A stretch of DNA of 20,319 nt from a virus. Below, piece by piece: positions 94 to 13,006 of the stretch (positions are counted from its first letter, which is position 1; each line of letters opens with the position of its first letter). The position numbers and the translations under genes were made by a program. The stretch is from IMG/VR virus record IMGVR_UViG_3300006737_000299, positions 1-20,319 of that record, one strand, 5' to 3'. The notes beneath the pieces are model-generated. The model saw only the letters and a list, made by a program, of their open reading frames with translations. It was not told where the DNA came from and ran no database searches.

Positions 94-2880
94 TTAATAG
101 TTAGGAATTTTAAATACTTTTCCATCATCAAAAACCAGCTCGTCGCCAGGTATTAAATTTTGAGATAAGTAAAAGCTTCTTTGCTCAGACTTTGATTTCT
201 TATTGAACTGTCTATTAAACTGCTTGTAACTTTTCACCGCGTCTTTTGGTACTTTTAGTTTTTGTTTTTTAATTTTTGATATATCCATTCTCGCACCTTG
301 ATCAGCAGCAAAACCTTGCCTACCATCAATCATGTAAAGTTTTCTTCTTGATAATTCTAATTGTCTATCGCTAGGTTTTGAATTAGCATTAACGTCGAAG
401 TTGTTGAACTGCTCAGTTTCTTCTACAGTTGTCCATTTAGATTTTTCACCATCAGGTATTTCGTCACCAGCTTTTGTGTGCCCCTCTGGATAAACTAATT
501 TTCCATTTTCAAGAGCAGAAACATTTTTGTTAGCAATAACACCATCCCAAACGCCGTTAGCTACCATAAGCATCTCCTTAGCACCTCTTCCGCTGTTCAT
601 TTTGTAATCTATCAAATAATCTTTTACGTTGCTTTCTAGCGCGTTAAACTCATCTCTATTGATACCAAGATCTGTTGTTATTAAAGTGTTGCCACCTTCT
701 AAAGTAACATTACTTCCATCACCAATTATATATTGACTTACAGTTTGTTCAGCTGCTAAAGCTGTAACGTATTTATCGTCAAGTCCACCAGGTCCACCAT
801 TATCCGCTATAACCTCTGCTTTCACTTTTTCAAAAGCAGCTTTATTAGCTAGTCCTTTAGTGGTACCTCCACCTCCAGTAAAGCCCATGTTTGTGTAATT
901 ACCTTTTTTCTCAAAGTTTAAAACTTTAGCTATAGAACTTTCTGTTGAACCATCTCTTTTATCCTCTATGTAACCTGTTGAGTTAACAGGCACAGTAATA
1001 CCAGAAGGTGTAACAAGAGATTGATAAGTACTAGTGGGTTGGTTTTGTTGGTTGTTGTTGTTGTTATTGTTATTGTTGTTGCCGGTGTTGGTGTTATTGT
1101 TGTTGTTGTTGTTGCCGGTGTTGTTGTTACCGGTGTTGGTGTTAGTGGTGTTGTTTCTATAATCTTGCTCATACTGTATAAGTAAATCTTCAGCGGATAT
1201 CGCATCCTGAGCGTCTTGTATAGTTGCTTGACCAACGCTAGTAGAAACAGTATTTCCACCTCCACCTGATCTATTATTTACTCTAGTTGTTGTTTTACCT
1301 TTGTATTTAGGCTCGTTTCTATCTGCAGACCCAACCATAGCTAGTAAAGTACCATCTGCTCTTGCTGAAGGAAAAGAACCATTTAGTATGTCTCTTTCAA
1401 AAAACTCTTTTTCTTCTTTTTTTGAAAAATCGTACGAAACTTCAACTTGTTTTGTTTTTGTAGGATCAGTAGGGTTATTTACTGTCATTGTAACAAGATA
1501 CTCGTCGGAGGTGGCTCCAACCTTTATATCTGTTATCATACCGTGACCAGTATCTCTATTGCCTCCAGTTGCTTTAATGTATTTACCCATGAAGTTTGTC
1601 TTCATGCCAGCTAAACCTATGTTTAGGGAATTAGCACCTGTATGACTTCCATATATAATATCTTTTGTTTTCTTATGATTTTCTTTTGCAACTTCGTAAA
1701 TAGCATCATGACCAGGGTTGCTAGTTGTGTATGTTGATCCGGTTGAAAAATTTGAAGAATTTAAAGCTTTATCTTGATCTGGTTTTAAATCTAAACCTAT
1801 ACTTTCTATAAAAGCTGTTTTAGCCATTAGTTCAATAGCTTGCATTTGATCCCTGCCTTCTTGAGTGTTTGGATCTGCTTCTGTATACTCTTGTAGTAAA
1901 GTCATTCCTCCAAACTTTTGGATCATAGCGTTTTTGTTATCAGGCGTATTAAAGACACCGTCAATTAAACTTTTACCATCACCATTTAAAAAATAGTCAT
2001 TTCTAGCTTTTGTATCTACATACAGTTTTTTAGTTTGTTGACCGTTACTATCTTCTATTGTAAGCTCTTTGTAAAAATCAGGATTAGTCTTTTGAGCGGT
2101 TATAGATTTAGAAATTGTTTTCTTATATTCTGAATAAGCTTTTACGGTTGAAAAAGGCGGAATTGCGCCAGACTTAAAATCTGCACCCACTTTAGTTAAG
2201 TCTAAAACCTCTGAAGCATCATATTTACCGTCTCCAATTAAGTTTCCAGTTCCAGTTCCGTCGTCTAAGTTTTGAGCATCAGAAAATATGCTAACTCCAT
2301 TTTCAATACTTCCTGCAATTCTTAAATTACCAAAATCTAAGTCATCGTTACTTGCTAAAGCGCCTAATATACCAGGATAGTTATCATCAACAACTAAACT
2401 TCCGTTACCCGTACCATCAGGTGACTGAGCATTTTTATTAAAAGCCTCATCTCTTTGAACAGCATAAGCATTAGCACCTATTATCCCATTAGTCATACCT
2501 TGAGCTTTACCTATCATATCAGTAACAAACAGTTGTATATCACCATCACTAGCCGTAGGGTTGTTTTCGATGTAATTTTTAATAGACTCTAATCCACCTT
2601 TAAACTGACCGTTTAAGTCATTTTGAAACTGCGTTTTAAAATCTTTATTATCTATGTTACCTAATATATCTTTAGCGTCTATAAAGTCTTTTTGAGTACC
2701 TTTTATAAATCTATCTTGATATCTTCTAAGTTTTGTTATTTCTGCTTTTTGTTGATTAATGTTTCTTTTTCTTATAGCAGCTTGATTTTTAGTAACGTCA
2801 CCGTACATTTTCTCTAGACCCTTGGTTAGAGTTTCGTACTTTTTGTTTATTAAATCTACTTTGGGTTTATCGTAAGCCAT
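94..2880 (-). CDS. Large putative internal virion/ejection protein with Asn-rich linker
   Basis: A 928-aa protein that I do not recognise as a named family. Residues 1-110 are charged and predicted helical (Lys/Gln-rich, coiled-coil-like). Residues 110-540 are a mixed, probably globular region with many Asp/Asn/Gly loops, including a Gly-rich turn near 539-542. Residues 576-610 are almost only Asn, Thr and Gly. Residues 620-928 form a second region ending in a Lys/Arg-rich tail (about 870-928). No signal peptide or clear membrane segment is seen, and no lysozyme or protease motif is obvious. It follows the 198-aa ejection-type gene by 8 nt and is the largest gene after the tail genes. This position in short-tailed phages often holds internal proteins released into the cell with the DNA, so that role is inferred from context only. 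A tail-tip or fibre-associated role is an alternative. Confidence 0.6.
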   Translation of the reverse strand: MAYDKPKVDLINKKYETLTKGLEKMYGDVTKNQAAIRKRNINQQKAEITKLRRYQDRFIKGTQKDFIDAKDILGNIDNKDFKTQFQNDLNGQFKGGLESIKNYIENNPTASDGDIQLFVTDMIGKAQGMTNGIIGANAYAVQRDEAFNKNAQSPDGTGNGSLVVDDNYPGILGALASNDDLDFGNLRIAGSIENGVSIFSDAQNLDDGTGTGNLIGDGKYDASEVLDLTKVGADFKSGAIPPFSTVKAYSEYKKTISKSITAQKTNPDFYKELTIEDSNGQQTKKLYVDTKARNDYFLNGDGKSLIDGVFNTPDNKNAMIQKFGGMTLLQEYTEADPNTQEGRDQMQAIELMAKTAFIESIGLDLKPDQDKALNSSNFSTGSTYTTSNPGHDAIYEVAKENHKKTKDIIYGSHTGANSLNIGLAGMKTNFMGKYIKATGGNRDTGHGMITDIKVGATSDEYLVTMTVNNPTDPTKTKQVEVSYDFSKKEEKEFFERDILNGSFPSARADGTLLAMVGSADRNEPKYKGKTTTRVNNRSGGGGNTVSTSVGQATIQDAQDAISAEDLLIQYEQDYRNNTTNTNTGNNNTGNNNNNNNTNTGNNNNNNNNNNQQNQPTSTYQSLVTPSGITVPVNSTGYIEDKRDGSTESSIAKVLNFEKKGNYTNMGFTGGGGTTKGLANKAAFEKVKAEVIADNGGPGGLDDKYVTALAAEQTVSQYIIGDGSNVTLEGGNTLITTDLGINRDEFNALESNVKDYLIDYKMNSGRGAKEMLMVANGVWDGVIANKNVSALENGKLVYPEGHTKAGDEIPDGEKSKWTTVEETEQFNNFDVNANSKPSDRQLELSRRKLYMIDGRQGFAADQGARMDISKIKKQKLKVPKDAVKSYKQFNRQFNKKSKSEQRSFYLSQNLIPGDELVFDDGKVFKIPNY
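1039..1155 (-). repeat. Asn-codon-rich simple repeat (low-complexity linker)
   Basis: On the coding strand this is a run of AAC/AAT codons interrupted by ACC and GGC/GGT, giving an Asn/Thr/Gly tract at residues 576-610 of the 928-aa protein, followed by Gln/Asn. A TNTG or NTG sub-motif recurs three times. The tract separates two better-conserved-looking halves, so it probably acts as a flexible linker. Trinucleotide-type repetition makes it a likely site of length change by slippage. Confidence 0.85.
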
Positions 2881-3490: not shown

Positions 3491-5647
3491 TTATTTTGAT
3501 GATAATACAAACTCGCTAGATACAGCGAATAATTCTTTTCTTGCTTCTGGATCTGTGAATTCATCAGTAGCTAACGTAACAGTTATAAAATAACCTTTTA
3601 AACCAGTCATATCTTGTCCAAATATGATCTCACCAGGTCTTTCTGTTGAACTGTTTATAATATTAGCAACATACTTACCTTCTTTTAACTTGAATGAAGA
3701 TCTAACGTTATCGCTAGGCTCTTCTGTCATAGAGTAGCTTTTTATACCCGAAGAAGCATCGAAGAATCCTACATTAAGAGGAAGTATAGGTCCAGTAGTA
3801 TCAGAACTAACACTTGATACTTGCCAACCATTACTACCTTCGTAGTTTATTGTTTTAAAGTTTTTATTAACAGAAGGTTCAGGATTAAACACAAACTCTA
3901 TAAGAGAAGGTTGTTTAACTCCATAAAAAGTGTTTGTTGAAGACAAGTTTGTATAGTGAGAGTATAACTGGTTTGACTTAATAGTGTAGAAGATATCTTT
4001 TAAGTTAAATATAAAATCAGGTCTAAAGGTGTAAAAAGTTGTCCAACCTTTAACAGACTCGTCAAAAGCAACTGTAGAGTAATAACCGTTTATGTTATTC
4101 CTATAATCACTTACTTCGTTAAGGCTTTTACTTGATGATTGTCTTTTTAAAGAAACAACATAATTATCTTTATGAACATCGAATCCTCCGTCTATGTAAT
4201 CTTTAGTATATTCTAAAAATTTTATTTTGCTAGCTTCGTACTCTACTCCGTTTTGACCAGGTAGTCCATAATTACCACCTGTTGTAAAAACTAAATACGG
4301 TCTATTATTTTGATAAGTTATACCAGTTACAAAATGCTCTAAAGTATACCACACGCCGCTGCCATCATCTATTATTCCTATTACTTCATTTACACATAAA
4401 AAACCTCCAGTTCCTCCTAATCCGCCTGGATCATCTATTGAAAGTATATCTCCAAGAGCGTAACCTGTGCCGATTTCTAATGGCATAGGAAAACTAGTAT
4501 CAGCACTTATTATAGCGCCACTAGGATCAACGTTTAATTTTATTTTTAAGTTGCTACCACTACCACCTGAAACTTCATAAGCAGAACCACTAACATATCC
4601 AGAACCAGACTGCGTTAAAATATTACCAACTGCATCACAGGGAGTAAGTAAAGCTTGAGCTGGGCTTCCACCTCTCATGTATATAGAAACGTTAGAACCT
4701 ATTGTAATATTATCTTCACTTGGAGATAATGCGTTACCCACTTGAACGTATGTTGAAGTAGGCATTTGTTGGGGGTTAAGGTTTGGTATTCCTGGATATT
4801 GATCAGATATAGGATAAACAGAAGATATCAATGATTTTCTAAAATCAGACACTAACTTTAATTTATCTCTAAAGTAATCTTTCATACCATATTGAGATAT
4901 TTCAGTTAAACCATCTCTAGACAGTCTCATTACGGTGTTTCTATATTTGTCTGTAAAATACCTCCTAAAACCAAAAGAAGCAAAAGATTCTGGGTTTTTA
5001 CTTATACCGTATTCACCTACGTAAGGTTGAACAGCCCCAATAACCACGTTAGATTTAGTCGTTATTGGTTGACCTTCTTGAGTATAAACAGCATCTTTAT
5101 CTATCATTGCTTGACTAACCTTGTTTTCTTGGAATATATTTAAAGCGTTATCCATTGCAAATAATTTCTGTATACTACCCAAGTTTTTATCAACAGATCT
5201 AGTTATGTCTGTTCCTGATGCAAAAACATTAGATTGGTTTATGCCTGTTCTACTATTAAAAACCCCTGAATAAACGACAGTGTTTTCTCTTATTCTAACT
5301 TTATTTTCTTTTTCAACTAAGAAAGCTCTAGGGGACAAATCCATTATTGGGTTATTATAACCACCTCTAATTCTTGATTCTTCTAAAACAAAATTAGTAC
5401 CAGCAGATGTACTGCTTAAAAAACTACTTAATGTAAAAGCATTGGTAGAAGGTCCATCAACAACTTGCACATTGTTTGGCCTGTGATCTATCCAAGGTGG
5501 TCCACCCCAAACTAAGTTAGAGTGCATCCATGGAACACCATCGTATGCAGAGCTTTGAGCACTTTCAGATAAAGTAGAAAGCTTTGGTACTGGAGTATGC
5601 TTTGAATATATAGTGTTAAAATATTTTAACTGTAAACTTTTAGACAT
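3491..5647 (-). CDS. Tail structural protein (putative ring/hub), crAss-like type
   Basis: A 718-aa virion protein. Residues 150-260 carry a strongly patterned block (GEYGISKNPESFASFGFRR at 211-229, then RLSRDGLTEIS and a Phe/Arg-rich helix) that I associate from memory with tail proteins of crAss-like and other Bacteroidota short-tailed phages. Residues 530-610 contain a second typical block: GWTTFYTFRPDF, then LYSHYTN, FYGVKQPS and KNFKTINYEGSNGW. The C-terminal 100 residues look beta-rich. Residues 335-423 are a glycine-rich insert listed separately. There is no signal peptide. The gene lies between the giant nozzle-like gene (11 nt) and the ejection-type gene (5 nt), which fits a distal tail-barrel or hub component. 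The exact position in the tail cannot be told from sequence alone. Confidence 0.65.
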   Translation of the reverse strand: MSKSLQLKYFNTIYSKHTPVPKLSTLSESAQSSAYDGVPWMHSNLVWGGPPWIDHRPNNVQVVDGPSTNAFTLSSFLSSTSAGTNFVLEESRIRGGYNNPIMDLSPRAFLVEKENKVRIRENTVVYSGVFNSRTGINQSNVFASGTDITRSVDKNLGSIQKLFAMDNALNIFQENKVSQAMIDKDAVYTQEGQPITTKSNVVIGAVQPYVGEYGISKNPESFASFGFRRYFTDKYRNTVMRLSRDGLTEISQYGMKDYFRDKLKLVSDFRKSLISSVYPISDQYPGIPNLNPQQMPTSTYVQVGNALSPSEDNITIGSNVSIYMRGGSPAQALLTPCDAVGNILTQSGSGYVSGSAYEVSGGSGSNLKIKLNVDPSGAIISADTSFPMPLEIGTGYALGDILSIDDPGGLGGTGGFLCVNEVIGIIDDGSGVWYTLEHFVTGITYQNNRPYLVFTTGGNYGLPGQNGVEYEASKIKFLEYTKDYIDGGFDVHKDNYVVSLKRQSSSKSLNEVSDYRNNINGYYSTVAFDESVKGWTTFYTFRPDFIFNLKDIFYTIKSNQLYSHYTNLSSTNTFYGVKQPSLIEFVFNPEPSVNKNFKTINYEGSNGWQVSSVSSDTTGPILPLNVGFFDASSGIKSYSMTEEPSDNVRSSFKLKEGKYVANIINSSTERPGEIIFGQDMTGLKGYFITVTLATDEFTDPEARKELFAVSSEFVLSSK
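4379..4645 (-). other. Gly-rich beta-type insert in the 718-aa tail protein (copy 3 of 3)
   Basis: Residues 335-423 of the 718-aa protein. The pattern is GSGYVSG at 348-354, GSNLKIKLNV at 364-373, a GAI strand at 377-379, GTGYALGDILSI at 393-404 and GGTGGFLCV at 411-419. The order GSGY, strand, G-x-GY-x-x-GD-x-x-x-I, Gly-rich turn, strand matches inserts in the 1715-aa and 345-aa proteins. The alignment was made by eye. Confidence 0.5.
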
Positions 5648-5658
5648 ATTTGTTTTTT

Positions 5659-8600
5659 TTATGAATTACCACTTCCAGGGCAATTGTTACTACTTTTTTG
5701 TTTGTCATAAACAACAAAACCTGCTCTTATTATGTTGTCAGTAGTTCCAACAACATCTAGTTTTTCAGATCCATCGCCAGGTGTTGGATTGTTAGGATCT
5801 GTAAAATCTCCAGCGTCATAAGCTTCAACTTCTAAAAGTAATCTAGCCGCTCCTCTTTTGCCTGATCTTACGTTTTTGTTTAGTCTAATGTTGCCAGATC
5901 CGTCCCACTTTCCACCAAGATCTTTATTGCTACCGCTTCCAAAACTTTGACTAGCTGTAAAACCGCCTCCATTCCATTTAACAAAAGAAACCATATCGTC
6001 CCAAGTTTTCCCACCAGCGTTGCTACCTGCTATAGGAACTCTAACTTCTCCTACGGTGTATGTTACATTTTGGCCATGTAGGTAAAATTTTAAAGGAAAA
6101 TTCTGTTCCATTCTTTCAAAATTTCCAGTACCACCATTCCAGTACCATATTATAGGTTGAGCTCTTACCTTTACAAGACCAACTGCTTCTGTAGGTGTAG
6201 ACCCTGGAAATGTTGAAGGTTGCATTTCGATCCAACACCTATAATCTTGTTTATCAGTTTCAGGACCAGTATTACTAAATCCATCATAAAAAATAGCTAA
6301 CTCTTGTGTTCCTGATCCATCTGGCTTTCTAACAAGAACTTTAGGCCAAAGAGTGTGACTCTCTAAGTAATATGTAAAAATTTGCCATCTAGGTTTTCTT
6401 ACTATTTCAAACAAAGAATTTGGACTAGAAAGAACTTGACTTGTAGAAACAGCTCCACTAGTACGAATACCATTATTGTAATTATTGTACTCCCATCCAT
6501 TAGTGTCTAGTAATCTAAATTGATTTTGATTTGAACCTTTTATATCGTGCATACCAAAAGTTAATATCCATCTTCTAATTTGATAAAAAACACCGTTGCC
6601 ATCAACTTTAGTTCCCCAAGCTCCGTTTTTATGGTCGTCTAATAGCATTATACATCTGTCATTATCCTGCTTATTATCTTTAAACATAACCTGGTCTGGA
6701 AATTGAGATGCGCCAATACCAAACCAGTCAGTAGTAGATCTTATTTGTTGGCAATCAGTTCTTCTAGGAGCATCAGGATCACTAGCTGAGTTAACTATCC
6801 AAGCCATATTTGAAGTTATGTGAGGACTATCGCCAATTATAGTTGGGTGTCCAGAACTACCTATGGAAGGTTGGTTTAAAGCGAATGAAGTATAGGATCT
6901 ACCTGTACTAAAGTCTACATCTTTTCTTGGGTTTTTAAAATATCCAGAGTTAGGTTTAATACCATTACTATGTAATCTAACTTCATTAGAAACCTCATTA
7001 ACCCATTTGTTCCAACATCTATATCTAAAGAAAGCTAGTTCTGAATTACCATATCCTTGTTTTCCATTACCCCAAAATCTGTCATAGTCAGCGCCGTAGC
7101 TGTCTGTCCAAAAACTTATATTATCGGGATCATAAGGTGTTGACCATATTGAAGGCCTTGACACGTAATCACCAGGTCTACTTCCACCTTGTCTCCAGTC
7201 TTCACCAGTAAAATTCATTAACCACTTTGGAGAGTGTATTCTATCTGCCTGCGCTCCACTTTGTTGTTGAAATAATTCTATTTGACCCTGCCTATTAGTC
7301 ATAACACCTTGGTGCTTAGCTGTGGACGAGTTACCGTCTTCGTCTGTTATTTTAAAGGTAAATATATAGAATTCTTCAGTAGATGAAGTTGAAGAAAAGA
7401 AATCTAAACCTAAAGCGTCTCTAGGTACTGAAATATCAGCGTATCTAATCGCATACTTAGGAGAAGCTGGTGGGTTAGCTGTACCTATTGCTGTTTGAAC
7501 TAAACTAAATTTAGAAACGTTAGTATAACCTATAGGGTATTCTAAGTTTGTTATATCAACTGAAGATCCTCCTACGATGCTACCGCTAGAGTCTAAAGAT
7601 ACTTTTTCTACCTTTTCTAACTCTATGAAAGCAAATTCTTGATTAAGATAATTTCCATTGTCATCAATTATACTAAACTCTGTTGAAACTATACTTCCAG
7701 CTGAAGAACCTTCAGAATAAGCTAAATTAAAGAAATCAACGTCATACTGCACGGGTGGATCATTATCCGCTTTTATAGCTTGGTTTAGGTCTTTTATGAG
7801 ACCAGTTGTTGACGTTTCGTAAAATATATCTATAGCTGAAACTTCTGGAGAAACCTCATACACGTTAAGTTTTTGAGAAAATACAAAAGTATCAAGTCCA
7901 GTTGCTCCACCGCCACTGTCTTGAACACCACCAGTAAAAGGTGTCCAACCTGAAACAGCGGTATAAGGTACAGAAGTTTGAAAACCGTATCTTTTAGAAA
8001 CACTTAGCGTAGCTATAAATGGATTTTCTTGAGCTCTAAAAAATGGATCTGATTTACCAGTAACCCCAGGGTAAGGATACTGTGACTGGCCATTGACAAT
8101 ACCTCCAGGGGCGTATAATTTACTTATATCAACACCTCTCTTGTTAGTCCAGTCACCCATTTCTCTAAAAGGTTTTATATCACTAACCTCTATAGCTGAA
8201 GGGTTTAGTTCTTGTCCCCATATTTGAGTTCTAATATTATCATTGTATTCATTAGCATATAGCCTATTCCATAATCTTTTACTAGATCCATAAACTTTAT
8301 CTTGAGGTCCAGCTTCTTTAAGGTCTCTAGGGAGCTTGTTTATGTTATCTCCATATATAGCTATCATAGCAGAGCTATTCTCACCTTCATATGTTAAGTT
8401 AACAGCTTCACCTCCTGAAAGTGTTTTAGTTTCATATTTAAAAATACCTGAAGTAGTTCCAGGTACATATAAGTTATACCAATCTTGCTCAAGCTGTTGC
8501 ACTACAAACCTATAACTATACCAACCTAATGGATTTCTTATTCTATCATAAATACCTACATAATCACTAGTTCTTTTTTCTGGTATTAATTCGTTCATGG

Positions 8601-10806
8601 TAACTCTAATAGCGTTACCCCACCAATCGGCAGGACTATCACTACCATTTACTATACTAGAAAAACAACCTTGAGCTGTGTTGCTGGTTATAACATTAGA
8701 GGCTCTACCAAATCTATCGTAAAGAACCAAACCTACCTTGTATGTTCTATTTTGTTTTAAAGAATGGTATGGTAATTCAATTGGTATAATACTATCTTGA
8801 TCCGGCTCGTCACCGGACAATTGAGTTGCAACCTCTCTTTCATCAACAGAAACATCAAAATCTAAAGTTTCAGGAACTGTTAAATTTTGTAAAAAGTTAC
8901 CATACATTATTCTACCACCTACAGCTTCTTGAGCTAAAGCTCTCATAGGTGTTATATCTGAAACCCTAGTTAAAACATTTTCTGGTAATGTTTTTATTGG
9001 TTTTTCAGATCTATATTCATAATATATATAATTGTCAACAGCTGTAACTTCTACTTCAGCAAGAGTTGTCAACGTTGGGTTGAATGGATCTCTAAGGCTA
9101 TATTTATCACCTTTTCTAATATTCAAACCAGTGACATATGGAGCTGGTTGAACATCATCAATAACACCTGAGCCAGGAGTAGTTGGCGTAGAGACAACTT
9201 TTAAAAAAGTTCCGTTAGAGTCACCTATTTTTTGAGCTGATAAAACATTTCCAGTTCCACTAACTCCCGAATTATAACCACTACCGTTTTCAGTTATCTC
9301 CACTTGTCTAGCAGATCCTAAACCTAAAGCATCTTTAATAGGTATGTCAGCTATAACTTTAACAGCTAAATCATCAGAAGCTTTAGCGACTATTTGCACT
9401 TCTTTTATTTTATGATAAAGCTCTATTTGATCTAACCAACCCGGTCTTTGTAATAAATCATCAGGACATGGTATGTTTAAACCTACATATGTAACTGAGT
9501 TTTCTAAAAAACTAACAACGCCAGATCTTTTAGCGTCTTCGTCATCGTTGTATAACCACCTACTTTGTTGTTTTGGAATAAAAGCAACTTGAGAAAATGG
9601 AGCTAAAATAGAATATTCGTTATCATCATATTTAAATCTATAGCTAAATCTAACAAACCTGTCTCTTAAATAACTATTGTCTCTACTAGTATTTAAAAAA
9701 TTAGAATCATGGTAAGGGTTAGGTATGCTTATATCTAATATGTCTCCAGGTTTCCATTTTGTTTCAAAAGAAGTCATAGCTGGAGTGCCTGTGTCTACAA
9801 AATCAGTTAATGAAAAAGTAAGTTCGTCGTGGTAAATGGAAGGAATAGCTGTTAATACTCTTTTAGCTGATCTTAAATAGTACTTGGTTCCGGTTTCTCT
9901 ATTGCTTACTTGCATAACTCTCCAGAAGCGAGAAAACTGAGAATTAGCGCCGTGTGTTTCGTCAAAAGTATAATCGTAACCAACGTCTTGTATATATTTA
10001 TTACCAACTAACCAAATGTAAGGGTTTTGATAAATGTCGTTAGCTGGAATTATAGAGCTAAACTTAGCTATAGTTTCGTCTCCAGCAGAGTCGTTTTCCC
10101 AGGAAGTAAACATTGTAGAAACATGTGGGGCTAAGTATTCTGAGGACTCGTCAATCAACGAAGATTCTACTACTCCAGAAGGGTAGACATTTGACCTTAA
10201 AAAAGATATAGGTCTATAAGGAGCGTATTTAGCAACGCTTATATTATCTTCATATTTGTAGTAAGAAGGATTTTTTAAAGCTGTTTCAACGTTTATTTTT
10301 CTAGGTTGATTTCTATTATCTGTCCAAAACATTAAATCTTCTACAATATTAGATCCAGTTATGCGGGAAAATTTTGAAAAGTTTAAAAAAGTTCCTTTAA
10401 CTATAATTGTAGTTTCTTGTGTAATTATATTGTAGCAAACTATCAAGCAAGAAGAACCTTTGACATCCTGTGTATTACCTTTACCATCTATAACGGTTCT
10501 ATCACCACTTGGAAAACCAGATTGATCTATAGTTCCATCTGTGTAGTTTGTTAAAAATAAAAATATCCTATCTTTCGCCTCGTCTCTACAATATCCTATT
10601 ATACTTATATTTATAAACTTACTTAATATAGAATCTTCTAGTAAAAAATTGTTACTTATTATATTTTCTAAGGCGCCAACGTCAGCATCTTCAGAAGAGC
10701 TAACAGACGCGTTTATAGCTTCTCTATATTCTCCATTTGGAACAAGCCTAGCATCTAGGTCTTTGTTCATTTTAGATTTTATAAAAGTGTTTTTAATTTC
10801 AGCCAT
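5659..10806 (-). CDS. Giant tail nozzle-like protein with C-terminal extension
   Basis: A 1715-aa protein. The N-terminus (KMNKDLDARLVPNGEYREAI, then DVGALENI) matches the start pattern I know from beta-propeller nozzle proteins of short-tailed phages. Blade-like strands follow, e.g. DRIFLFLTNYTDGT at 79-92 and DLMFWTDNRNQPRKINV at 157-173. Residues 385-411 (FRFSYRFKY type, APFSQVAFIP) and 593-640 (YIYYEYRSEKPIKTLPE, MRALAQEAVGGRIMYGNF) are further recognisable blocks, and DIFYETSTTGLIKDLN is another further on. An Ig/cadherin-like stretch (FTFKITDEDGNSS) ends the better-known part. The last roughly 500 residues are rich in Trp, Tyr, Gly and Asn and are unfamiliar; they may be a receptor-facing or fibre-docking part. 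Residues 500-592 hold an insert listed separately. The start is fixed by the nozzle-type N-terminus; the gap to the upstream gene is 2 nt. Confidence 0.7.
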   Translation of the reverse strand: MAEIKNTFIKSKMNKDLDARLVPNGEYREAINASVSSSEDADVGALENIISNNFLLEDSILSKFINISIIGYCRDEAKDRIFLFLTNYTDGTIDQSGFPSGDRTVIDGKGNTQDVKGSSCLIVCYNIITQETTIIVKGTFLNFSKFSRITGSNIVEDLMFWTDNRNQPRKINVETALKNPSYYKYEDNISVAKYAPYRPISFLRSNVYPSGVVESSLIDESSEYLAPHVSTMFTSWENDSAGDETIAKFSSIIPANDIYQNPYIWLVGNKYIQDVGYDYTFDETHGANSQFSRFWRVMQVSNRETGTKYYLRSAKRVLTAIPSIYHDELTFSLTDFVDTGTPAMTSFETKWKPGDILDISIPNPYHDSNFLNTSRDNSYLRDRFVRFSYRFKYDDNEYSILAPFSQVAFIPKQQSRWLYNDDEDAKRSGVVSFLENSVTYVGLNIPCPDDLLQRPGWLDQIELYHKIKEVQIVAKASDDLAVKVIADIPIKDALGLGSARQVEITENGSGYNSGVSGTGNVLSAQKIGDSNGTFLKVVSTPTTPGSGVIDDVQPAPYVTGLNIRKGDKYSLRDPFNPTLTTLAEVEVTAVDNYIYYEYRSEKPIKTLPENVLTRVSDITPMRALAQEAVGGRIMYGNFLQNLTVPETLDFDVSVDEREVATQLSGDEPDQDSIIPIELPYHSLKQNRTYKVGLVLYDRFGRASNVITSNTAQGCFSSIVNGSDSPADWWGNAIRVTMNELIPEKRTSDYVGIYDRIRNPLGWYSYRFVVQQLEQDWYNLYVPGTTSGIFKYETKTLSGGEAVNLTYEGENSSAMIAIYGDNINKLPRDLKEAGPQDKVYGSSKRLWNRLYANEYNDNIRTQIWGQELNPSAIEVSDIKPFREMGDWTNKRGVDISKLYAPGGIVNGQSQYPYPGVTGKSDPFFRAQENPFIATLSVSKRYGFQTSVPYTAVSGWTPFTGGVQDSGGGATGLDTFVFSQKLNVYEVSPEVSAIDIFYETSTTGLIKDLNQAIKADNDPPVQYDVDFFNLAYSEGSSAGSIVSTEFSIIDDNGNYLNQEFAFIELEKVEKVSLDSSGSIVGGSSVDITNLEYPIGYTNVSKFSLVQTAIGTANPPASPKYAIRYADISVPRDALGLDFFSSTSSTEEFYIFTFKITDEDGNSSTAKHQGVMTNRQGQIELFQQQSGAQADRIHSPKWLMNFTGEDWRQGGSRPGDYVSRPSIWSTPYDPDNISFWTDSYGADYDRFWGNGKQGYGNSELAFFRYRCWNKWVNEVSNEVRLHSNGIKPNSGYFKNPRKDVDFSTGRSYTSFALNQPSIGSSGHPTIIGDSPHITSNMAWIVNSASDPDAPRRTDCQQIRSTTDWFGIGASQFPDQVMFKDNKQDNDRCIMLLDDHKNGAWGTKVDGNGVFYQIRRWILTFGMHDIKGSNQNQFRLLDTNGWEYNNYNNGIRTSGAVSTSQVLSSPNSLFEIVRKPRWQIFTYYLESHTLWPKVLVRKPDGSGTQELAIFYDGFSNTGPETDKQDYRCWIEMQPSTFPGSTPTEAVGLVKVRAQPIIWYWNGGTGNFERMEQNFPLKFYLHGQNVTYTVGEVRVPIAGSNAGGKTWDDMVSFVKWNGGGFTASQSFGSGSNKDLGGKWDGSGNIRLNKNVRSGKRGAARLLLEVEAYDAGDFTDPNNPTPGDGSEKLDVVGTTDNIIRAGFVVYDKQKSSNNCPGSGNS
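9031..9309 (-). other. Gly-rich beta-type insert in the 1715-aa protein (copy 2 of 3)
   Basis: Residues 500-592 of the giant protein: ENGSGYNSG at 506-514, SNGTFLKVV at 530-538, GSGVIDDV at 545-552, GLNIRKGDKYSL at 560-571 and LAEVEVTAV at 582-590. It lies between two blocks that are normally contiguous in proteins of this type (VKVIADI before, YEYRSEKPIKTLPE after), which suggests an inserted module. It is the most divergent of the three copies. Confidence 0.45.
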
Positions 10807-10808
10807 AA

Positions 10809-11963
10809 TTAATGTTTAATCCATTTAGATTTGTTTCTCATAACTTGCGCTATTTCCTCAATCTTTACATTGCTTAATCTTATTTTAGCGTTTCTATACG
10901 CTGCTGATCTCTCCCTTTTATACCTGTTTATAATATACTCAGGTATACCTTTTCTAGTTGATAATATAGCGTGCGTTATATGCATGTATATAGCTTGTTC
11001 TGCCATTTTAGGTATTTTCATGTCTCCATCATAGCCTATGCCATCGGAAATGTATTCCAATATTATTAGCTTATCAACTAGGTCGCTAGTAAAATTAAAA
11101 ACACCTAACCTATCGTTTATAGTAAACTTTCCATTTACTTGAGCTTCTTCAGGTTGCAAACCATACATTTTACCTCTTCTGGGATTTCTTGGATGTCTCC
11201 AGTTAGCAGGAGCCATATTATTTGTTTGATCTTGACTAGCCCATTTGTCTTCAGTTAAAGAGTTATTAGAGTATATATTCTCTTCAGTCCAGTCCTGTGT
11301 TGGTATACCGTCATTGTCTTGTATAGGTAATTCAGTTGGATTGCTAGTAACTCTAGTTGGATATATTATATGTTTACCTCCAGCATCATCTACCCAAGAT
11401 ATTTTAACATAATTAACATAGTCTTGAGGCATGGGTATAGTTAAAGAGTGAGGTATAGTTAACTCTTGAGATTTTACAACTTTAAGTAAATCGTAACTAA
11501 ATTCCTGTAAACCTCTTTTAGCGTGAAAAATAACGTCTGTTTTGTTAACTCTAGGTATAATCTTTTCGTAACCTACATATCCAACCATAAAGTTATTTAT
11601 AACATTATCTAGCGTAATATAAGCATAGCCACCATAGTTGTTATTTATAGCGAACTGCTTAAGTTGTATATAGAAAAAACCATTGTAACCAGTTGTTGCT
11701 GGGTCTCTCAATACTAGCTCGTTATTAGGTTTTATGTAAGATAGGTCTTCGTTTAAAGCAGTGTAACCACTACCATTGTCATAATATATAGTGTAGTTAG
11801 AAGCTGCGCCAATATGAGCGCCTGTGCTATCGAAAGCGCTTATAGCATCTGTATTGAAATTCCAAGATGTTATTGATATTTCATCACCAGGTGTGTTAGT
11901 TAAAACTCCTAAGTCTTGTTGACCAGAGTAATATTGAGCGTTAGTTTCAGTTATAGTAGCCAT
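10809..11963 (-). CDS. Putative tail ring/adaptor protein with extra N-terminal beta domain
   Basis: A 384-aa protein. The core begins near residue 123 (NNFMVGYVGYEKIIPRV) and continues with FHAKRGLQEFSYDLLKVVKS at 146-164 and LTIPMPQDYVNYVKISWVDD at 174-193, a helical-then-beta pattern I associate with ring or connector proteins below the portal in crAss-like phages. Residues 270-384 hold DRLGVFNF, LIILEYISDG and a C-terminal helical bundle rich in Arg/Lys (RYKRERSAAYRNAKIRL). Residues 1-120 are beta-rich and look like an additional domain placed before the usual core (GDEISITSWNF, NYTIYYDNGSGY). No signal peptide or membrane segment is seen. The neighbours are the other ring-like gene (5 nt upstream) and the nozzle-like gene (2 nt downstream), which fits sequential assembly of the tail barrel. 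The ring assignment is inferred. Confidence 0.6.
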   Translation of the reverse strand: MATITETNAQYYSGQQDLGVLTNTPGDEISITSWNFNTDAISAFDSTGAHIGAASNYTIYYDNGSGYTALNEDLSYIKPNNELVLRDPATTGYNGFFYIQLKQFAINNNYGGYAYITLDNVINNFMVGYVGYEKIIPRVNKTDVIFHAKRGLQEFSYDLLKVVKSQELTIPHSLTIPMPQDYVNYVKISWVDDAGGKHIIYPTRVTSNPTELPIQDNDGIPTQDWTEENIYSNNSLTEDKWASQDQTNNMAPANWRHPRNPRRGKMYGLQPEEAQVNGKFTINDRLGVFNFTSDLVDKLIILEYISDGIGYDGDMKIPKMAEQAIYMHITHAILSTRKGIPEYIINRYKRERSAAYRNAKIRLSNVKIEEIAQVMRNKSKWIKH

Positions 11964-11968
11964 TTTTA

Positions 11969-13006
11969 TTATTGTTTTTCGTTAGCTTCGTCTTGGTTTA
12001 TTTTAGCCATTGCTGTTTGAACAACTTGAGGATCTCTTATAACAACACCAGCATAAAACAATATTCTCAACACCAACTCTTGTCTTTCCGAATCATGTAA
12101 TCCAAAATCTATATATCCACCAGTACCATCGTCCATTAATGTACCTGTGTCTACTTCTAAAACTATTTGACCTGTTGCTGTTCCACCAGCTGGGTTTGTA
12201 TTATTAGCAGCAAAGTTAACATCTATTGTTATAGTGTCTCCCACTTCAAATCCGCCTCCACTAGTAACTATACCAACAACACTAACTTCATCATCATCAT
12301 TTGTTATAGTTATTTCTGGAAGGGTAGCGTTAGGATTAGTTGTTGTTATATTTGCAGGCGGCACGGCTAGATCTTGACCATCTACTGTACCATTTGCTGA
12401 GGTATTGTTTATTATTAATCCACTAGTGTATTCTCCTAAAACAAAACCTCCTTCAACAAAAGGGTAGTCAGTAAACACATAACCTCCGTTTGGACCGACT
12501 TCATATCCCCATCTTACATCTTCAGGTTTTTTAACATATTGTGCTTTTATATTAGACACTATATTAGATGGAGACATAATTATCTTATTATCTTCATATA
12601 AAAAAGCTGGACAATTTTTGTCTGGTTTAGTTAAAGGGGATTTTATAATATTGTAATACTCGTTTCTAGTAAGTCTAGTAGCTTCACTTATTTTTCCATT
12701 TTCATAAGTCAAAGTATTCAATCTATATAATTCATCGGGAAGGTTAAACTTACCTGAATCGTAAGTTAATTCTTTTTCAGTTTTAAATTCTGCAATTTTT
12801 TCATCAGTATTAAAAACTCTATTTGAGTAGTCGTATTCAGTTTGCTGTATTCTAACTTGCTGGTTAAGATCTTCAAAGTAAGTTTCAAATATTTCTCTTT
12901 GAACTTGACTGCCTATGCTGTTGAATTCGCTAGGCGTTAAATAACCACGTTGCTCTTTGTTAAGTATAAACAACACTGTTTTGTATACTGAATCTATATT
13001 TGGCAT
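11969..13006 (-). CDS. Putative head-tail adaptor/ring protein
   Basis: A 345-aa protein. The N-terminal helical block (VLFILNKEQRGYLTPSEFNS, then QREIFETYFEDLNQQ) is a pattern I recall from the first ring or adaptor gene of crAss-like and related marine phages. Residues 80-165 are beta-rich (KFNLPDELYRLNTLTY, NKIIMSPSN, IKAQYVKKPEDVRWGY). The C-terminus (FGLHDSERQELVLRILFYAG, then VVIRDPQVVQ) looks like the closing helices of the same family. Residues about 185-298 separate these two conserved parts and hold a Gly/Thr/Asn-rich insert listed separately. The gene ends in tandem TAA TAA. It is the first gene after the terminator at 13019-13046, so it probably heads the tail-gene transcript, though the 12 nt between the T-tract and ATG leave no room for a promoter. 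Confidence 0.6.
   Translation of the reverse strand: MPNIDSVYKTVLFILNKEQRGYLTPSEFNSIGSQVQREIFETYFEDLNQQVRIQQTEYDYSNRVFNTDEKIAEFKTEKELTYDSGKFNLPDELYRLNTLTYENGKISEATRLTRNEYYNIIKSPLTKPDKNCPAFLYEDNKIIMSPSNIVSNIKAQYVKKPEDVRWGYEVGPNGGYVFTDYPFVEGGFVLGEYTSGLIINNTSANGTVDGQDLAVPPANITTTNPNATLPEITITNDDDEVSVVGIVTSGGGFEVGDTITIDVNFAANNTNPAGGTATGQIVLEVDTGTLMDDGTGGYIDFGLHDSERQELVLRILFYAGVVIRDPQVVQTAMAKINQDEANEKQ
12143..12409 (-). other. Gly-rich beta-type insert in the 345-aa adaptor (copy 1 of 3)
   Basis: Residues 200-288 of the 345-aa protein: a loose NGTVDGQDLAV start, a NATLPEITIT strand at 226-235, VSVVGIV, GGGFEVGDTITIDV at 250-263, an AGGTATG turn at 273-279 and QIVLEV at 280-285. The GFEVGDTITI core aligns with GYALGDILSI of the 718-aa protein. 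The surrounding 185-298 region interrupts the family's N- and C-terminal blocks. Confidence 0.5.

Follow-up and report, generated by a model that had tools for sequence, protein, structure and literature searches.

The window, a 20,319-base virus record analysed over its whole length, is a fragment of a marine, crassvirus-like podovirus related to crAssphage of the gut; its long genes all lie on the minus strand and include a head-and-tail block of crassvirus-like type, with terminase, portal, capsid, a 345-aa ring protein, a 384-aa second ring-type protein and two proteins of 1715 and 718 aa (Table 1). Marine Flavobacteriia are the hosts of cultured relatives of this phage. The 345-aa protein was assigned to the ring 3/4 family by its match to PHROG 14543 (E 2.8e-31) and could be aligned with the ring proteins of phi38:1, elemoF and Panino, the Pfam model CrAss_Ring_3_4 giving 15.3 bits, under its cut-off of 27. 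The 718-aa protein was identified as a muzzle protein with Pfam crAss_MUZ_C (48.5 bits, cut-off 27), and the 1715-aa and 718-aa proteins matched successive parts, the first and the last, of PHROG 14478 and together correspond to the muzzle. This protein is split over two genes in the window and its marine relatives and encoded by a single gene in phi38:1 (~1324 aa) and an elemovirus (~1493 aa). The 1715-aa protein exceeds all aligned relatives in length (1123–1632 aa among the apparently complete ones) and therefore probably holds further insertions. Elsewhere in the window, a 928-aa protein includes a long low-complexity stretch rich in Asn, Thr and Gly (GNNNTGNNNNNNN...), which may serve as a flexible linker.

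Table 1. Genes, module copies and other features of the window, with the evidence for each assignment.
Feature	Position	Strand	Evidence
345-aa crassvirus ring protein (R3/R4-like), host gene 1	11969..13006	-	PHROG 14543; weak Pfam CrAss_Ring_3_4
Module in 345-aa ring protein, residues 183-293	12128..12460	-	Profile match, window left out of training
384-aa second ring-type protein	10809..11963	-	
Optional N-terminal block of 384-aa protein, ~115 aa	11619..11963	-	
Muzzle, split over two genes	3491..10806	-	
1715-aa protein, N-terminal part of split muzzle, host gene 2	5659..10806	-	PHROG 14478 positions 1-176
Module in 1715-aa protein, residues 494-592, most diverged copy	9031..9327	-	Site shared with relatives, AF2, shuffles
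718-aa protein, C-terminal part of split muzzle, host gene 3	3491..5647	-	Pfam crAss_MUZ_C; PHROG 14478 positions 935-1099
Module in 718-aa protein, residues 334-422	4382..4648	-	Profile match, AF2
Low-complexity stretch of 928-aa protein	approx. 980-1140	-	

A first-pass annotation made from the sequence had proposed that the 345-, 1715- and 718-aa proteins each carry an extra segment between conserved blocks and that these segments represent one module spread among virion genes. All three segments were found where it had placed them, with the flanking blocks confirmed in alignments of relatives; the module bounds used here were taken from profile matches. A profile built only from the ring inserts of other phages matched the 718-aa protein (i-E 3.5e-6) and the 345-aa protein (i-E 3.4e-5) of the window, together with inserts at the matching site in ~20 relatives of the 1715-aa protein and inserts in the 384-aa family of relatives. 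After iteration, these values reached 1.6e-9 and 1.7e-4, respectively, the best score among 1512 reversed ORFs being 0.039, and three rounds gave 47 domain matches with i-E <0.01 in the ring family, 28 in the 1715-aa family, six in the 384-aa family and one in the 718-aa family. Conversely, a profile made from the 1715-aa family only matched the 718-aa protein at 4.1e-8. In a profile-profile comparison, the ring and 1715-aa modules were matched over 68 columns (probability 98.2%, E 4.4e-14), with the motifs GFEVGDTITI and GLNIRKGDKYSL, which the annotation had considered alignable by eye, in register. The module has a sequence signature of GSGY and GSGYxxGDxI motifs.

The copy in the 1715-aa protein of the window gave no significant match in the database search (E 8.8) or with the profile of its own family (0.16). 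Nevertheless, it scored above 1000 of 1000 shuffled sequences with two profiles and above 997 of 1000 with a third, and it occupies exactly the site of clear copies in 21 relatives. The weak score of this copy, and the fact that the module is short, glycine-rich and without a residue that is invariant across the whole set, would fit a convergent origin of Gly/Ser/Thr-rich beta segments with GD turns, arising independently in each protein, but this is highly improbable in view of how the profile scores compare with those of reversed ORFs and shuffled sequences, the 68-column match and the agreement of the predicted folds of two copies, and was already disfavoured for the ring and 718-aa copies. 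The three segments are very probably diverged copies of a single compact domain, ~90–100 residues long, which forms a six-stranded beta barrel and is exchanged between genomes; neither of the two outcomes named beforehand as contrary to a single module, differing folds (compared here for two predicted copies) or inserts that are always present, was observed.

The fold was predicted with AF2 for two of the three copies. For the 718-aa copy, a model based on 56 module sequences showed six strands (pLDDT 85.4, pTM 0.76), and the 1715-aa segment was modelled with its own family only (pLDDT 71.7). The best structural matches of both models were the six-stranded domain III of EF-Tu, eEF1A and eIF2gamma, with modest Z-scores (<8) of 4.2–4.3 over 74–78 residues for the 718-aa model against EF-Tu domain III-type barrels and of 6.3 over 84 residues at 2.9 Å for the 1715-aa model against EF-Tu domain III (model residues 49–147 corresponding to protein residues 494–592). 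The arrangement shared with EF-Tu is no proof of common origin; the point is that the two predicted structures agree on a six-stranded barrel nearest to EF-Tu domain III, although at such scores a fold outside the listed matches might also fit. Over half of the alignment behind the 718-aa model consists of relatives of the 345-aa copy and, because this alignment also includes some modules of the 1715-aa family, the two models are not fully independent. Foldseek gave no match with E <0.001 in the PDB for either model, and the best matches among viral models were structural proteins of cyanophages and uncultured phages (best E 0.008). A PDB search with the ring-protein alignment returned no match, and hence no solved ring on which to place the insert.

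Homologues lacking the insert, which the annotation had suggested looking for, were found for each of the three proteins. Relatives of the 345-aa protein are either 330–362 aa long, with the insert, or 228–257 aa long, cleanly without it, and the ring proteins of phi38:1, elemoF and Panino, all cultured crassviruses, lack it at the same site. For the 1715-aa protein, 21 relatives have no insert and four have an expanded one; the 718-aa insert was found in the window only, with none of the 31 aligned relatives carrying it. When mapped on the best tree of the neighbouring 384-aa gene, the ring insert requires at least 11 state changes, of which well-supported branches force at least five, and the 1715-aa insert shows seven. 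The 384-aa protein itself has a second optional block at its N-terminus, relatives being either about 292 aa or 359–469 aa long and differing mainly by this region; four of them (L003, L014, L018 and L019) carry the module within it, and no module was found by profile in the 384-aa protein of the window.

Pairwise comparison of related genomes showed that the module can be replaced in an otherwise conserved gene. Specifically, the ring proteins of L041 and L042 share 99% protein identity in the flanks and 48% in the module, and those of L012 and L037 share 94% and 39%, respectively, with DNA identity in the latter pair of 96–100% through codon 165, 38–62% across the module and 80–97% beyond. 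Empty-site pairs were found in L038/L055, L043/L060 and L042/L061; in the first of these, the DNA is 93–100% identical before the site and 87–100% beyond, with one genome lacking the module. The reverse case was given by L005 and L009, in which the flanks are 74% and the module 80% identical. This pattern of identity suggests that exchange takes place by homologous recombination in the flanks. The median dN/dS within module lineages was 0.28, compared with 0.16 in the flanks, a module value indicative of purifying selection; no positive selection was seen inside the module at this ratio.

In L035 (12124–12558), one module copy is nested in another just before the GSGYxxGD motif, the profile matches 5–63, 8–99 and 63–102 corresponding to the first half, the whole and the second half of the module, and L026 and L039 have the same ending as the nested L035 copy. 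Recent duplication of a single insert inside one genome could account for such tandem or nested copies in L026, L035 and L039 and for the presence of several copies in one tail block, but it is most unlikely as the source of the copies considered here: ring and muzzle modules are no more alike within than between genomes (mean score 72.1 versus 74.2 permuted, P 0.73, 15 genomes), and in the window the 718-aa copy shares just 17% and 25% identity with the two remaining copies. Same-genome copies are thus not mutual closest relatives, which favours exchange between genomes.

The module also occurs outside this group of phages. Members of the set matched 21 PHROG virion-protein families, including baseplate wedge, head closure and tail fibre proteins, and a tblastn search with one module of the 1715-aa family retrieved 270 phage records, nearly all from cyanophages, down to 8e-10. 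A profile restricted to crassviruses found copies in P-HM1 gp7, P-RSM4 gp8, a structural protein of S-PM2 and a fibre protein of a Pelagibacter phage, the carriers in cyanophages being baseplate, neck and fibre proteins. Absent or exchanged in close relatives and present in unrelated ocean phages, the module looks like a mobile accessory domain. No model in Pfam or NCBIfam describes it, and no name for it was found in the literature searched. Run against PDB sequences, the module profile mainly retrieved gp18 motif matches and antibody chains, none with E <0.01.

The comparison drawn in the first-pass annotation with the Ig-like domains of phage structural proteins holds for the behaviour of the module and probably fails for its fold. 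Like the module, phage Ig-like domains are optional, exchangeable beta domains that occur in many unrelated virion proteins and are unneeded for the core fold, and a statement quoted in PMC9230969 suggests that they bind carbohydrate weakly. In contrast, the module has its own signature and a predicted six-stranded barrel nearest to EF-Tu domain III, and among 56 module members compared with Pfam only one touched an Ig family, at E 0.051. The module is a portable accessory domain like the Ig-like domains, distinct from them in sequence and probably also in fold.

Another likeness may be found in domain I of the T4 sheath protein gp18 (Pfam PF22639), a six-stranded barrel of ~90 residues that is inserted in another domain, protrudes from the tail without subunit contacts and binds the retracted long tail fibres (PMC3004832). 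The motif TPGSNYAVGDKITV is common to this domain and the module, and the G106S mutation of gp18, which blocks fibre retraction (PMC3004832), appears to fall within it. The resemblance is suggestive but limited to a profile match of 23 columns (probability 77–89%, PDB E 0.02), and gp18 domain I has an extra helix. Furthermore, gp18 was not in the Foldseek lists or in the VIA lists, which were dominated by EF-Tu domain III, although its absence from the latter does not exclude it.

Two other accounts of tail proteins are related to these observations. Shuffling of domains between otherwise conserved tail and neck proteins of related phages has been described for the neck passage structure (Smug et al. 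2023, PMC10684548), where the exchanged unit is a C-terminal domain rather than an internal insert in a ring or muzzle protein, and the available part of that text does not name the module family. Length differences among crassvirus muzzles are reported to result from insertions in the IG2 and crass-domain regions (Bayfield et al. 2023, PMC10172136); the available part of this source does not identify the inserts as one recurring module or say that ring proteins share it.

Taken together, the best explanation, to which we assign a probability of roughly 75%, is that the module is an optional barrel cassette located in loops of ring and muzzle proteins, exchanged between phages and presenting a binding face at the particle surface. 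In marine crassvirus-like phages, the domain is inserted in-frame in loops of ring and muzzle proteins of the tail. Recombination through the conserved gene sequence that flanks it probably accounts for its gain, loss and exchange between genomes, and unrelated ocean phages have relatives of the module in other virion proteins. It is most likely an independently folding unit that protrudes at the particle surface and is dispensable for core assembly. By analogy with T4 gp18 domain I, the nearest tested precedent, and its interaction with the retracted fibres, the module could offer a changeable binding face to host-surface polysaccharide or to the phage's own tail fibres, a role that we propose tentatively, at somewhat less than even odds.

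The main rival of this binding role is a structural one, in which the same module would stabilise the structure instead of binding the host or the fibres, the copies on the last ring and the muzzle touching each other and bracing the ring-muzzle joint. This would fit the docking of ring 5 on the muzzle in phicrAss001 and the distribution of the copies in 43 relatives (loci L002–L080), where the muzzle copy occurs only where there is a ring copy (both in 21, ring only in nine, neither in 13 and muzzle only in none). However, when kinship is taken into account, this nested pattern is not significant, with too few independent contrasts on the tree (about three versus none, median p 0.25), and linked genes could simply be exchanged jointly. 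Bracing is also difficult to reconcile with the nine genomes that have a ring copy alone, with the replacement of ring copies by versions just 39–48% identical, and with the occurrence of the module in cyanophage baseplate proteins and fibre proteins of other phages, and is considered unlikely.

Returning to the exchangeable binding cassette, a more speculative extension, which we regard as rather doubtful at present, is that tailed phages share a plug-in drawn from a single barrel family without a name, which would include the modules of crassvirus rings and muzzles, those of the baseplate, neck and fibre proteins of cyanophages and pelagiphages, and T4 sheath domain I, and which might present fibres or host glycans with a changeable docking face on parts usually deemed invariant.

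Diversification of phage-host interaction is usually sought in the tail fibres, whereas here core tail parts, the ring and the muzzle, hold a swappable domain, which can be entirely different in two phages with ring proteins that are 94–99% identical elsewhere. The module has no Pfam or NCBIfam model yet recurs in these many PHROG virion families, so that many marine structural proteins could be better annotated, and its function can be tested directly with the natural pairs of genomes that differ by an empty site or a swap.
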